Below, in pieces: positions 52,540-56,836 of a stretch of DNA of 64,000 nucleotides; position 1 is the first letter of the stretch, and the number at the start of each line of letters is the position of its first letter. The stretch is from Rhodocyclaceae bacterium (lineage in GTDB: Bacteria > Pseudomonadota > Gammaproteobacteria > Burkholderiales > Rhodocyclaceae): contig VBWA01000011.1 in NCBI GenBank assembly GCA_006218025.1, positions 1-64,000 of the forward strand, in the 5' to 3' direction. Made by a program: the position numbers and the translations under genes. The notes under the pieces are model-generated. The model was not told the DNA's origin. It saw only the letters and a program-made list of their open reading frames with translations, and made no database searches.

Positions 52540-52947
52540 TCAGCTCCTGGGCGTAGTGACGATCTTCCCGGCGCGCAGATAGGGGACGTAGGCCTTGTCG
52601 ACAACGCCAATATGGCTGACCAGCCAGCTTCCCAGCATGTTCAGCATTTCGCTGCTGACGTCTTTACGAATCGAATGCTGCTTGATTTCAACCAGATCGA
52701 CAGAGAACGCCCGGTGGGCAGCGATATGGGCTTCCAGGTCGGGGTATCCGTGCAGGCGCATCAAGGCCTCTTCAACCGCAAAGTGGACGTTGACGAAACT
52801 GTTCAGCTCGACGAGCGCGAAATGCACGGCAGACCATTTGTCATCCGAAGTAACCGCCTGTTCCAGGCGCGCCACGACATCGAACAGAACCTGATGCTGC
52901 TGGTCGATCTCGTGAATTCCGGTAAGCAGGTTGTCGGTCCAGCCCAT
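52540..52947 (-). CDS. Bacteriohemerythrin
   Basis: A 135-residue di-iron, O2-binding protein. The ligands are in place: His18 (IDQQHQVLF), His55 and Glu59 (VNVHFAVEEALM), His74 and His78 (EAHIAAHRAF), His112 and Asp117 (SHIGVVDKAY). The start at 52947 is favoured over 52974 because AAGGAG lies 5-6 nt ahead and the family begins xxWTD. It would store or carry O2 or sense it in the cytoplasm. It is divergent from the double cNMP-domain protein. Confidence 0.93.
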   Translation of the reverse strand: MGWTDNLLTGIHEIDQQHQVLFDVVARLEQAVTSDDKWSAVHFALVELNSFVNVHFAVEEALMRLHGYPDLEAHIAAHRAFSVDLVEIKQHSIRKDVSSEMLNMLGSWLVSHIGVVDKAYVPYLRAGKIVTTPRS

Positions 52948-53033
52948 CGTGGCTCCTTGCAGGTCTTTGGACATCAGCGAAGCGGATGATTGTAGTCTGG
53001 ATTTGTGCCCCGATTGACAGGCCGCAAGACCCG

Positions 53034-53109: not shown

Positions 53110-54015
53110 ATGGATGATTTGGACTTTTCAGCCAAACCCGCCGCACCGGCCCCCAAGCCGGCGGTGAAGCCGATCCCGCCCGGCGAACCCGCCTCTCTCT
53201 ATGAACCCAGGCTGGCGCTGGAGTTTTTCAAGATCGCCGGGACGCTGGAACAATTCGCGGCCGGCAAACCGATCTTTTTGGAAAACGAAAAGACCGCCGG
53301 CTTCTTCTCCAAGGGCGCCCGCATCTACCTCCTGCTCGACGGCGATGTCACGCTGACGCTGAAGGGAAAACCGCTGGAACTGGTCCTCCCCGGAGAGATA
53401 TTCGGCGAGATGGCCGCCATCGCCGAGGTTCCGCGCAGCGCGACGGCAACGGCACGAAAGAATTGCCGGGTGCTGTCGCTGGATGAAAAGGCTTTCCTGC
53501 AGTCGTTGCAGCAAATGCCCGAGTTCGCACTGATGCTGATGAGCGTCATGGCGCAACGCCTGCGACGCAGCGTCGCCAAGCTGGCTACAGCCAAAAAGTC
53601 TTCGGTCGCGGCGCTGGTCCAAAACAACTCGCTGGACAAGAAGATGCTCGTGGAATTGCAGCATGAACTCGGCGATCCCTCGCCGACGGTTGCCCAAACG
53701 GGCCAGAACGTCGTCACCCAGGGCGGGACGGGTGCCTGCATGTTCGTCGTGATCCAGGGCCGCATCGCGATATCGGTCGATGGCCTGGTGATCGAGCATG
53801 TCGGACCGGGCGGAATCTTCGGCGAGATGGCATTGGTCGATCGCATCGGTCGCGCCGCCACCGCTACCGCCGAAACCGAGAGCGCCTGGTTCCTGATAGC
53901 GCGGGAGCCATTTCTTTCGATGGTCAAGTCGAAGCCGGCATTCGGCATTGCACTGCTGCGCTCGATGGCCGGGCGCGTGCAGCATATCGGCAGCCTGCTG
54001 CGCGACGGATCCTGA
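53110..54015 (+). CDS. Protein with two cyclic nucleotide-binding domains
   Basis: A 301-residue protein with two CRP-type cNMP-binding domains in tandem and no DNA-binding or catalytic part. Domain 1 (about 30-150) has GEIFGEMAAIAEVPRSATATA and domain 2 (about 190-300) GGIFGEMALVDRIGRAATATA, each with the phosphate-binding cassette Gly-Glu-Met-Ala and the Arg that binds the phosphate. The first 30 residues are Pro-rich and disordered. Such proteins may bind cAMP or c-di-GMP and control a partner. It is divergent from bacteriohemerythrin and convergent with tsaD. Confidence 0.9.
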   Translation: MDDLDFSAKPAAPAPKPAVKPIPPGEPASLYEPRLALEFFKIAGTLEQFAAGKPIFLENEKTAGFFSKGARIYLLLDGDVTLTLKGKPLELVLPGEIFGEMAAIAEVPRSATATARKNCRVLSLDEKAFLQSLQQMPEFALMLMSVMAQRLRRSVAKLATAKKSSVAALVQNNSLDKKMLVELQHELGDPSPTVAQTGQNVVTQGGTGACMFVVIQGRIAISVDGLVIEHVGPGGIFGEMALVDRIGRAATATAETESAWFLIAREPFLSMVKSKPAFGIALLRSMAGRVQHIGSLLRDGS

Positions 54016-54021
54016 CGGCGT

Positions 54022-55038
54022 TCAGGAAAGCTGGTCGAGCGGCCAGCGCGGGCGGACGACGAAGGCGCCCCGGGTCGAATCCGCCACGTCGCCCTGCAGC
54101 AGGCGCTGGCTGCCTGCGAAGGCGATCATCGCACCGTTGTCGGTGCATAGTTCCAGTTCGGGATAGAACACCCGGCCGCCGATCTTCGCCATCGCCTCGT
54201 CCAGCCGCTGGCGCAAACGGCGATTGGCGCCGACGCCGCCGGCCACCACCAGCGATGAAAGTCGGTGCTGGCGACACGCCGCGACAGCCTTGGCCGCCAG
54301 CACTTCAGTCACCGCTTCCTGAAATTCGGCGGCAAGGTCGGCGCGGTCGGCCTCCGTCAGTTCGTGAGCCCGGGCAGCGGTCAGCACCGCCGTCTTCAGG
54401 CCGGAAAAGCTGAAGGACAAATCGCCGCTGTTCAGCATCGGCCGCGGCAGCTTGTAGCGACCCGGCCTGCCGCTTTCGGCCAGCTTCGCCAGCGCCGGTC
54501 CACCGGGATAGCCCAGGCCGAGCAGCTTGGCGGTCTTGTCGAAGGCCTCGCCCGCCGCGTCGTCGAGCGACTCGCCGAGCAGCTGGTAGGCGCCGACCCG
54601 CGTCACGCGCATCAACTGCGTATGGCCGCCGGACACCAGCAGGGCAATGAAGGGGAAGTTCGGCGCGTCGATGCCAAGAAGCGGCGAGAGCAGATGGCCT
54701 TCGAGGTGATGCACCGGCAGCGCCGGAATATCGAGCGCCAGCGCGAGCGCCTCGGCAAAACTCGCGCCGACCAGCAAGGCGCCCGCCAGTCCCGGCCCTG
54801 CCGTGTAGGCAATCGCATCGATGTCGTGGCGCGTACACCCGGCATCGGCCAGCACGCGTTCCAGCAGCGGGATCAGGCGCCGCACGTGATCGCGCGAAGC
54901 CAGCTCCGGCACCACGCCGCCATAGGCCGCGTGCATAGCCACCTGGGTATGCACGGCATGGCCGAGCAGCCCGCGCTCCGTGTCGTAAAGCGCAACGCCG
55001 GTTTCGTCGCAGGAGGATTCGATGCCGAGGACTTTCAT
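54022..55038 (-). CDS. tsaD: tRNA threonylcarbamoyladenosine synthase subunit TsaD
   Basis: A 338-residue ASKHA-fold protein. [19 protein letters not shown] starts the family; the metal-binding HxxxH is His111/His115 in [16 protein letters not shown] and [16 protein letters not shown] follow. It forms the t6A modification of ANN-decoding tRNAs with TsaB/TsaE. The ATG at 55038 is chosen (MKVLGIES). A repeat copy (54257-54284) lies antisense and is read A-C-R-Q-H-R-L-S ahead of VVAGG; the protein length there is normal. In many relatives tsaD lies divergent next to rpsU; here two genes lie between. Confidence 0.96.
54257..54284 (+). repeat. Dispersed 22-nt repeat, copy 12 (antisense in tsaD)
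   Basis: GAAAGTCGGTGCTGGCGACA then CGCCGCGA on the plus strand; the host gene is on the minus strand. Confidence 0.75.
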
Positions 55039-55085
55039 GGGCGGCATTCTACCGGGTGGCTATAATCGACCGGAGCCGCACCGCC

Positions 55086-55144: not shown

Positions 55145-55462
55145 ATGAAAATACTGCTCCTGTGTCACGACCTGACCACGCTTCTGCGTCTCGATGCGGC
55201 ATGGACCGCGGCCGGAGCGGCAGTGCTCAAGAAGACCAGCCGCGAGACGCCCGACTGCATCGTCATCGACCTCGGCCGCAGCGACGCGCTGGTCGAGATC
55301 ACCCGGTTGCGGGCACTCCACCCGGATATCGACATCATCACCTGCGCCGCGACTTTCGACGGCGACATCGTCGGTGAGGCGAAAGCGGCCGGCGCCACCG
55401 ATTTCGCCGCGCGCAGTTCCATCGACCTGCGCATCAAACGCCGCCTCAAGCTCCCGGGTTAA
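55145..55462 (+). CDS. Degenerate receiver-like protein
   Basis: A 105-residue protein with the alternating beta-strand/helix pattern of a response-regulator receiver: MKILLLCHDLTTLLRLDAAW, CIVIDLGRSDALVEITRLRALHPDIDIITCAATFDGD, then AKAAGATDFAARS. An Asp (VIDLG, about residue 42) sits where the phosphoacceptor is expected, but the acidic pair of strand 1 is replaced (CHD) and the Lys of strand 5 reads Ala/Arg. It is best called a pseudo-receiver of unknown role. It is 6 nt from the glycosyltransferase-like gene, so the two are co-transcribed. Confidence 0.65.
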   Translation: MKILLLCHDLTTLLRLDAAWTAAGAAVLKKTSRETPDCIVIDLGRSDALVEITRLRALHPDIDIITCAATFDGDIVGEAKAAGATDFAARSSIDLRIKRRLKLPG

Positions 55463-55468
55463 ACACGG

Positions 55469-56545
55469 ATGCACCTGCTGGTCGACATTTCGGCCCATGG
55501 TTTCGGCCATCTGGCGCAGACCGCGCCGGTCCTGGATGCCCTTGCTTCACTGCTGCCGACCTTGAGCCTGACGGTGCGCAGCGCGCTGCCGCGCCAGCAG
55601 CTGGCGCGCCGCATCGGCGCCGGCTTCGAGCATGTGGCCGAAGCGCGCGACTTCGGCTTTGCCATGCACAACGCGGTGGATATCGATCTCGCTGCGAGCA
55701 AGCAGCGCTATTGCGAGTTTCACGCCGACTGGCCGCAGCGGGTCGCGGCCGAGGCGGCATGGCTGCGGCGGCACCGGGTCGATGCGCTGCTGAGCAATGT
55801 CGCCTACCTGCCGCTGGCCGCTGCCGCGGAAGCTCGCATTCCCGCAGCGGGCCTGTGCTCGCTGAACTGGGCCGACCTGTTTACAAGTTACTTCGGCAGC
55901 GAACCGTGGGCCGGGAAAATTCATGCCCAGATGCTGGACGCCTACAACGCCGGCCTGGCTTTCCTGCGCGTCACGCCCGGCCTGCCGATGCCGGGCCTGC
56001 TGCACCGGCACGACATCGCGCCGATTGCGACGCTCGGACGACGTGATCGTGCCCATGTGGCGCGCCTGCTTGGCCTGGAGCAGAACCAACGCTGGGTTCT
56101 GCTGGCCATGGGCGGCATGGAGTTTCGCCTGCCCGTGGAAGAGTGGGCGCAAACTCCCGGCCTGAACTGGCTGGTGCCGGGCGAATGGAAAATCCGGCGC
56201 GACGATGTACGCAGCTTCGACCAAGCCGATCTGGCTTTCAGCGATCTGCTGGCCAGCGTCGATGCGGTGGTCACCAAGCCCGGCTACGGCACTTTCGTCG
56301 AAGCGGCCTGCAGCGGCATCCCGATCCTCTACTTGCAACGCGACGACTGGCCGGAAACCTGCCACTTCGCGGCTTGGCTCGGCGCCCACGCCCGCGCCGG
56401 GATGCTGGCACGCGAGCGGCTGCTGCCCGGCGACTTCATTGGTGCATTGGAACGGCTATGGCAGGCACCGGCGCCGACTGTACCGCTGGCCGGCGGTGCC
56501 GATGAGGCGGCACGCCGGCTGGTGACGGTATTGGGGCTGGCCTGA
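55469..56545 (+). CDS. GT-B-fold glycosyltransferase-like protein of unknown substrate
   Basis: A 358-residue protein. MHLLVDISAHGFGHLAQTAPVLDALASLLP at the N-terminus and LLASVDAVVTKPGYGTFVEAACSGIPILYLQRDDWPE (about 265-305) match the GT-B fold of UDP-sugar transferases such as the MurG/UGT group and the N-terminal part of L-arabinokinase. The KPGYGT loop is where the nucleotide-sugar phosphates bind. Acceptor and donor are unknown. It stands between the pseudo-receiver gene and the strong rpsU promoter, in a place that holds no gene in many betaproteobacteria. Confidence 0.7.
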   Translation: MHLLVDISAHGFGHLAQTAPVLDALASLLPTLSLTVRSALPRQQLARRIGAGFEHVAEARDFGFAMHNAVDIDLAASKQRYCEFHADWPQRVAAEAAWLRRHRVDALLSNVAYLPLAAAAEARIPAAGLCSLNWADLFTSYFGSEPWAGKIHAQMLDAYNAGLAFLRVTPGLPMPGLLHRHDIAPIATLGRRDRAHVARLLGLEQNQRWVLLAMGGMEFRLPVEEWAQTPGLNWLVPGEWKIRRDDVRSFDQADLAFSDLLASVDAVVTKPGYGTFVEAACSGIPILYLQRDDWPETCHFAAWLGAHARAGMLARERLLPGDFIGALERLWQAPAPTVPLAGGADEAARRLVTVLGLA

Positions 56546-56562: not shown

Positions 56563-56590
56563 TTGACATCAATGGCAAAGCGTTTAGAAT
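56563..56590 (+). promoter_or_regulatory. rpsU operon promoter
   Basis: TTGACA (56563-56568), 16-bp spacer, TAGAAT (56585-56590): a strong sigma-70-type promoter ahead of rpsU-yqeY-dnaG-rpoD. Confidence 0.8.
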
Positions 56591-56623: not shown

Positions 56624-56836
56624 ATGCCGGGTATTCGCCTCAAGGAAAACGAGCCGTTTGAAGTTGCGATCCGCCGCTTCAAGCGCGCCATCGAAAAGAC
56701 TGGTCTGCTGACCGAGCTGCGCGCACGCGAGTTCTACGAAAAGCCCACGACCGAGCGCAAGCGCAAGGCCGCGGCCGCCGTCAAGCGCCATCACAAGCGC
56801 ATTCGCAGCCAGCTTCTGCCGCCCAAGATGTATTGA
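56624..56836 (+). CDS. rpsU: 30S ribosomal protein S21
   Basis: A 70-residue basic protein, full length for bS21: [59 protein letters not shown]. It binds 16S rRNA near the anti-Shine-Dalgarno region and starts the macromolecular synthesis operon (rpsU, here yqeY, dnaG, rpoD). A strong promoter lies 34 nt before the ATG. The stop is followed at once by a stem-loop and then a terminator, so dnaG and rpoD are expressed less than rpsU, as is known for E. coli. Confidence 0.98.

Follow-up and report, generated by a model that had tools for sequence, protein, structure and literature searches.

Locus organization

The DNA analyzed here, a 64,000-nucleotide stretch of the Rhodocyclaceae contig VBWA01000011.1 (the window), carries two genes on the same strand between the divergent genes tsaD and rpsU. 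The first encodes a small receiver-like protein (REC) and the second a protein of predicted GT-B fold (GT) (Table 1). A preliminary description of this DNA had placed two reading frames 6 nt apart in this slot, exactly where we find them, and had regarded tsaD and rpsU as direct divergent neighbors in many related bacteria. Coordinates read from 30 relatives outside the genus agree, with 21 of them having the two genes divergent and separated by less than 200 bp. The pair had also been positioned just ahead of the rpsU promoter, and a sigma-70-like site indeed follows the end of GT.

Table 1. Features of the tsaD-rpsU slot in the window.
Feature	Position (nt)	Strand	Description
tsaD	54022-55047	-	Left border of the slot, outside the REC-GT pair
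REC	55145-55462	+	105 aa, stand-alone pseudo-receiver
REC-GT junction	55463-55468	+	6 nt, stop to start
GT	55469-56545	+	358 aa, GT-B protein, apparently cytoplasmic, uncurated family
Promoter-like site ahead of rpsU	56563-56590	+	TTGACA-16-TAGAAT, sigma-70-like consensus, 11/12 bases
rpsU	56624-56836	+	Right border of the slot, outside the REC-GT pair

Both genes are constrained and under purifying selection. Over five genome pairs, dN/dS (NG86) was 0.05-0.22 for REC and 0.16-0.28 for GT; for comparison, tsaD gave 0.09-0.12 over three pairs. Their G+C (~0.63-0.69) matches the surroundings. With this level G+C and the pair present in 24 of the 31 genomes of the genus, a recent horizontal insertion or mobile origin is not needed; plasmid records contained no GT match at E 1e-5.

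To the left of tsaD, the window encodes a bacteriohemerythrin (52540-52974) beside a cyclic-nucleotide-binding protein (53110-54015), for which Pfam matched two stretches and gave no DNA-binding match. Five congeners (L042, L045, L047, L117, L118) have a 1.2-1.3 kb spacer between tsaD and REC that carries a gene on the tsaD strand; these genes look alike by eye, and the L117 copy is assigned to Radical_SAM by Pfam.

A pseudo-receiver with an altered pocket

REC matched the receiver profile PF00072 at 24.5 bits, below the gathering score of 30.2. Of five structural models, two scored poorly (pLDDT 43.8 and 40.6); the best (94.0) shows a CheY-like alpha/beta fold that matches the receivers CheY, Spo0F, and PhoP at TMq 0.78-0.81. 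The two N-terminal metal-binding acidic residues are missing and C7 and H8 stand in their place, a correspondence assigned by eye in the first strand (the profile alignment begins at residue 8); both are invariant in all 24 sequences of the genus. The switch Lys is replaced by R90 (24/24), and position 68, the Thr/Ser switch site, is occupied by A in 19, F in 3, and G in 1 of 23 sequences. D42, kept in all 23 rows that have the position, aligns with the phospho-acceptor Asp of CheY. With the metal-site and switch residues altered and D42 kept, canonical phosphorylation appears unlikely, and the pocket is conserved in altered form. We consider REC to be probably a phosphorylation-independent partner of GT.

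REC resembles ChxR (PMC3960148) and other atypical phosphorylation-independent receivers in its CheY-like fold and altered phosphorylation pocket, but it has no DNA-binding or other output domain. Nor is it an aspartate-less receiver (ALR; PMC4395418), since the phospho-Asp is kept. One congener (G012, L008/L127) encodes a REC with an internal deletion, leaving 46 residues from the usual start, followed by a full-length GT.

A GT-B protein outside curated families

The predicted structure of GT (pLDDT 91.7, pTM 0.89) consists of two Rossmann-like domains in a GT-B fold. Over its whole length, it resembles YojK (Z 23.4), MurG:GlcNAc (21.6), and Pseudomonas aeruginosa MurG (20.9), in keeping with the earlier assignment to a MurG/UGT-like GT-B protein. 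GT shares with MurG (GT28), YojK, and OleD the two-domain fold over 304-335 residues, a Gly/His loop near the N-terminus, and an acidic donor-loop residue in the C-terminal half, yet identities are 11-17% and no MurG or GT28 model matched at cut-off. The N-terminal loop combined with a C-terminal donor loop bearing an acidic residue is the pattern of the GT-B superfamily.

No Pfam or NCBIfam family matched GT at cut-off. Thirty diverse homologues gave weak matches alone, mostly to glycosyltransferase families, among them TIGR04516 (13/30) and the MJ1255/VC2487 family TIGR00661 (10/30). The latter is a curated sequence relative, but its cut-off of 195.9 bits lies far above the scores of the window GT (11.9) and of L054 (23.6). 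Motifs comprise an HGxGH loop, CSLNW, KPGYG..E, and RxDWPE. Columns invariant across all 30 homologues include H10, G11, G13, H14, D61, L132, W134, G215, and G216, as well as D265, K270, Y273, G274, R291, W294, P295, and E296; the donor-loop acidic residue E278 is present in at least 90%. Fold and sequence motifs make GT a probable nucleotide-sugar transferase. A possible likeness to the N-terminal half of plant L-arabinokinase is a further lead.

A role as a second MurG was rejected. The window GT had no match to TIGR01133 (the MurG equivalog) listed up to E 1, and only one of the 30 homologues matched it (E 0.007). A separate murG over cut-off is present in the window genome (G000:C39:36761-37792), and profile comparison of GT with this gene aligned only 63 columns, at a probability of 4.7.

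Nesting in the A2M-PBP1C operon

Seven of the 30 congeners (G002, G003, G009, G011, G013, G014, G017) enclose the pair in a larger cluster with the gene order A2M, REC, GT, PBP1C, rpsU, yqeY, dnaG, in which A2M is a type I, YfhM-like alpha-2-macroglobulin and PBP1C is PbpC. GT and PBP1C are less than 200 nt apart, and PBP1C and rpsU less than 100 nt, in all seven. A2M and REC are separated by less than 250 nt in five; in G011 they lie 2.0 kb apart, with genes between them that look AbrB- and PIN-like by eye, and in G002 3.3 kb apart. Divergent tsaD lies 0.9-4.1 kb beyond A2M in G002, G009, G013, and G017, and on another contig than A2M in G003, G011, and G014. What had been described as a two-gene insertion is therefore better seen as a reduced cluster.

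The type I thioester motif CLEQ (CxEQ) is present in A2M of all seven congeners, one of which (G014) carries an in-frame stop in the gene, and in A2M of L050. This last locus, on the same contig as L168, belongs to another genus (g333) and has A2M-GT-PBP1C, without REC, between tsaD and rpsU; its A2M was confirmed by Pfam, and NCBIfam lists no family for it. PBP1C of L053 exceeds the TIGR02073 equivalog cut-off (616 vs 494 bits).

Within the genus (31 genomes), strong matches to the outer genes came from these seven only. A2M was absent at E 1e-10 from the other 23 congeners and the window genome, and PBP1C matches of at least 78% identity occurred in the seven alone, with none above 37% among the matches listed for the other 23 and the window genome, the latter giving only distant penicillin-binding-protein matches. 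No genome of the 31 has just one of the two genes. Searches for remnants of either gene found none in the reduced loci L129-L133 (tblastn, E 1e-3) or in L115-L118 and L127 (E 1e-4). Because REC-GT is kept where both outer genes are gone, the pair need not act with A2M and PBP1C.

In the literature, yfhM-pbpC (A2M-PBP1C) forms a two-gene operon, proposed as a unit of periplasmic defense and repair, with both products in the periplasm (PMC4498604, PMC5764988). The passages on the operon name the two genes alone, and PMC5764988 has no word starting with 'glycosyl'. The operon with its CxEQ motif encloses REC-GT in the seven congeners and GT alone in g333; in the window genome neither A2M nor PBP1C was found. 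We found no account in the open-licence literature of a glycosyltransferase or receiver inside this operon. Nine relatives outside the genus gave a strong match to A2M. In six of them (G038, G040, G043, G048, G058, G059), less than 200 bp separates A2M from PBP1C; the distance is ~0.9 kb in G057, and G056 has the two genes on separate contigs. At G032:C16:14346-27301 (L128), the two genes are ~5 kb apart, with P-type-ATPase-like and deaminase-like genes between them (by eye).

Coupling and distribution of the pair

In all 24 genomes of the genus that have REC, the window genome included, the distance between the REC stop and the GT start is -1 to +6 nt, so the two genes are probably translationally coupled, and we infer that they are co-transcribed. 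The preliminary description had not recognized the pairing and had raised the question of whether it recurs. It does: 24 of the genus's 31 genomes, the window's among them, have this conserved and tightly coupled pair of a receiver-like and a GT-B protein, neither of which reaches a curated family cut-off.

REC was identified at ≥60% identity in these 24 genomes (in pieces in G012) and at 48-58% in five more genomes, from two genera, of a 150-genome family sample. GT is more widely distributed: 35 of 61 relatives have it, as do 44 of the 150 genomes in the family sample and 65 of 370 genomes sampled across the class. Within the family sample, none of the five outside-genus REC genomes had a GT match, and the 40 outside-genus GT genomes had no REC match at E 1e-10; the pairing looks genus-specific. 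Several congeners are incomplete drafts. G001, G027, and G030, all less than 90% complete, gave no GT match, and G004, G008, and G015 have a partial GT and no REC. G016 has GT with no REC match within 7 kb upstream. In G006 (L115, L116; also L058), GT is fragmented across two contigs, and REC precedes the first fragment; this is probably a broken gene or a misassembly.

The neighbors of GT vary by lineage, with many unrelated settings. The preliminary description had placed the pair beside the core synthesis operon; a functional tie to the tsaD-rpsU-dnaG-rpoD core, or a function shared with tsaD or rpsU, is unsupported, as GT has other neighbors in other lineages and rpsU has its own promoter-like site.

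These distributions bear on whether the two proteins work together at all. REC and GT may be co-transcribed and yet functionally unrelated, REC having come to lie upstream of GT by chance in the ancestor of the genus and having stayed because the junction works. The solitary occurrence of each gene outside the genus and the highly variable neighbors of GT speak for such an accident, as does the small Pro/Gly-rich protein encoded after REC in all five genomes of the two other genera. The strict junction (24/24), which holds with or without the outer genes, and the retention of the two-gene unit in genomes that lack A2M and PBP1C argue against it, and we regard a chance association as possible, if somewhat unlikely. 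Given that each gene lives alone in other genera, the partnership is nevertheless young and may be only transcriptional.

The five solitary REC loci (L162-L166) have the Pro/Gly-rich gene ~0.05-0.2 kb after REC, and their REC orthologues keep C7 and the Asp (by eye).

Association of GT with murU

Counted as same-contig pairs and uncorrected for shared descent, at least 17 of the 65 GT-bearing genomes of the class, from at least seven families, have murU within 6 kb of GT, and in at least five of them the distance is less than 500 bp. MurU scored over cut-off in 60 of these 65 genomes vs 229 of the 305 without GT (Fisher p 0.0015, also uncorrected for descent). A MurU over cut-off is also encoded in the window genome, away from GT. 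At L089, AmgK and MurU were named by best family match, MurU being over and AmgK under cut-off.

These associations would fit a role of GT in peptidoglycan recycling, using or making a GlcNAc/MurNAc conjugate of the AmgK-MurU branch, with the stay inside A2M-PBP1C reflecting cell-wall repair. The proximity of GT to murU in several families, the higher frequency of MurU in GT-bearing genomes, and the presence of MurU in the window genome, though not near GT, all point this way. Against it, the seven families may have inherited their layout from a single ancestor, AmgK and MurU are missing from all 15 GT loci inspected in the family (14 also have neither A2M nor PBP1C), and most inspected GT loci have unrelated neighbors. 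A dedicated recycling function seems to us rather doubtful.

Three loci (L100, L101, L106) have co-directional genes for MurU, a GCS2 amidoligase-like protein, an AstE/AspA-like protein, and GT; L096 and L103 are arranged likewise with extra sequence. The GCS2 and AstE/AspA identities were confirmed by Pfam for L101 only and assigned by cluster or by eye in the others. AmgK precedes MurU in L096 and L101, and lipA is nearby on the opposite strand. Such a MurU-GCS2-AstE/AspA-GT run is possibly an uncharacterized cell-wall-sugar pathway.

Loss or gain of the outer genes

Mapped onto a marker tree of 27 rows, the eight rows with the A2M cluster require six changes, of which at least three are forced by starred branches, and a single clade of the genus's seven such rows was rejected; this tree was built quickly, and 11 of the 27 rows are less than half filled. 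The marker tree and the GT tree disagree on the A2M-bearing row nearest to the window. The former has one such row, G009, in the window clade, and the latter places G003 and G014 next to that clade with a support of 89/90, below the level for starring.

Given this scatter and the A2M-GT-PBP1C layout of g333 outside the genus, the outer genes are most simply read as lost together repeatedly, with REC-GT retained. Independent losses do not readily explain why every genome has either both outer genes or neither, and congeners may instead have exchanged the slot as a whole. REC-GT could then be the older unit, around which A2M and PBP1C were acquired more than once, for instance in one piece by homologous exchange between congeners. 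In favor of such gain, G035 of genus g6, which stands close on the GT tree, has GT elsewhere and tsaD adjacent to rpsU. Repeated gain would, however, need insertions on both flanks of the pair, and the outer genes surround GT between tsaD and rpsU in g333. We consider it unlikely and favor loss.

Interpretation

We hypothesize that REC-GT is a two-gene operon of a GT-B enzyme and a pseudo-receiver partner, the surviving middle of an A2M-REC-GT-PBP1C cluster, and give this reading a probability of roughly 45%. The full cluster would once have lain between tsaD and rpsU, with its outer genes lost several times in the genus. The C-terminal half of GT would bind a nucleotide sugar, for which a UDP-sugar is the best guess, and GT would transfer the sugar, in the cytoplasm, to an envelope precursor or a recycled cell-wall sugar. 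This choice of acceptor follows from two contexts, A2M/PBP1C and AmgK/MurU, both of which point to the cell wall, and a putative role of GT in the cell envelope, in peptidoglycan-sugar metabolism, is our best guess. The strict spacing suggests that REC most likely touches and tunes GT; the signal would not be Asp phosphorylation and would probably act through the altered Cys/His pocket of REC. A new modification system, the suggestion of the preliminary description, would be one possible form of such a pair.

Several observations weigh against this reading. REC and GT each occur alone (5 REC and 40 GT genomes outside the genus in the sample of 150), and A2M and PBP1C are periplasmic, whereas neither REC nor GT shows an export signal by eye. 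No intact REC was found ahead of GT in G016 or G012, the pair persists where the outer genes are gone, the cluster is loosely spaced in G011 and G002, and 14 of 15 inspected family GT loci have neither A2M nor PBP1C.

A bolder extension would make REC-GT a new class of intracellular envelope-damage module, in which the pseudo-receiver responds through its Cys/His pocket to a redox, metal, or ligand cue and thereby controls a GT-B enzyme making a cell-wall-linked glycoconjugate, and which arose inside the A2M/PBP1C operon and outlived it repeatedly; we treat this as speculative and quite improbable. Alternatively, GT could be a GT-B scaffold without catalytic activity, whose binding of a nucleotide sugar serves as a signal read out by REC. 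Non-enzymatic GT-B-like proteins exist, and the partner gene encodes a signaling fold, but we consider this very unlikely, as the putative catalytic loop HGxGH and the donor-loop residues K270, Y273, and G274 are invariant in all 30 homologues.

So far as the literature searched shows, further members of the A2M-PBP1C response are little known. The nesting of GT, and in one genus of a pseudo-receiver, within the A2M-PBP1C operon, and their retention where both outer genes are gone, offer a concrete handle on what else takes part in this response. GT belongs to a widespread family that reaches no curated cut-off and lies near murU in at least seven families, so a single enzyme assay would inform many genomes.
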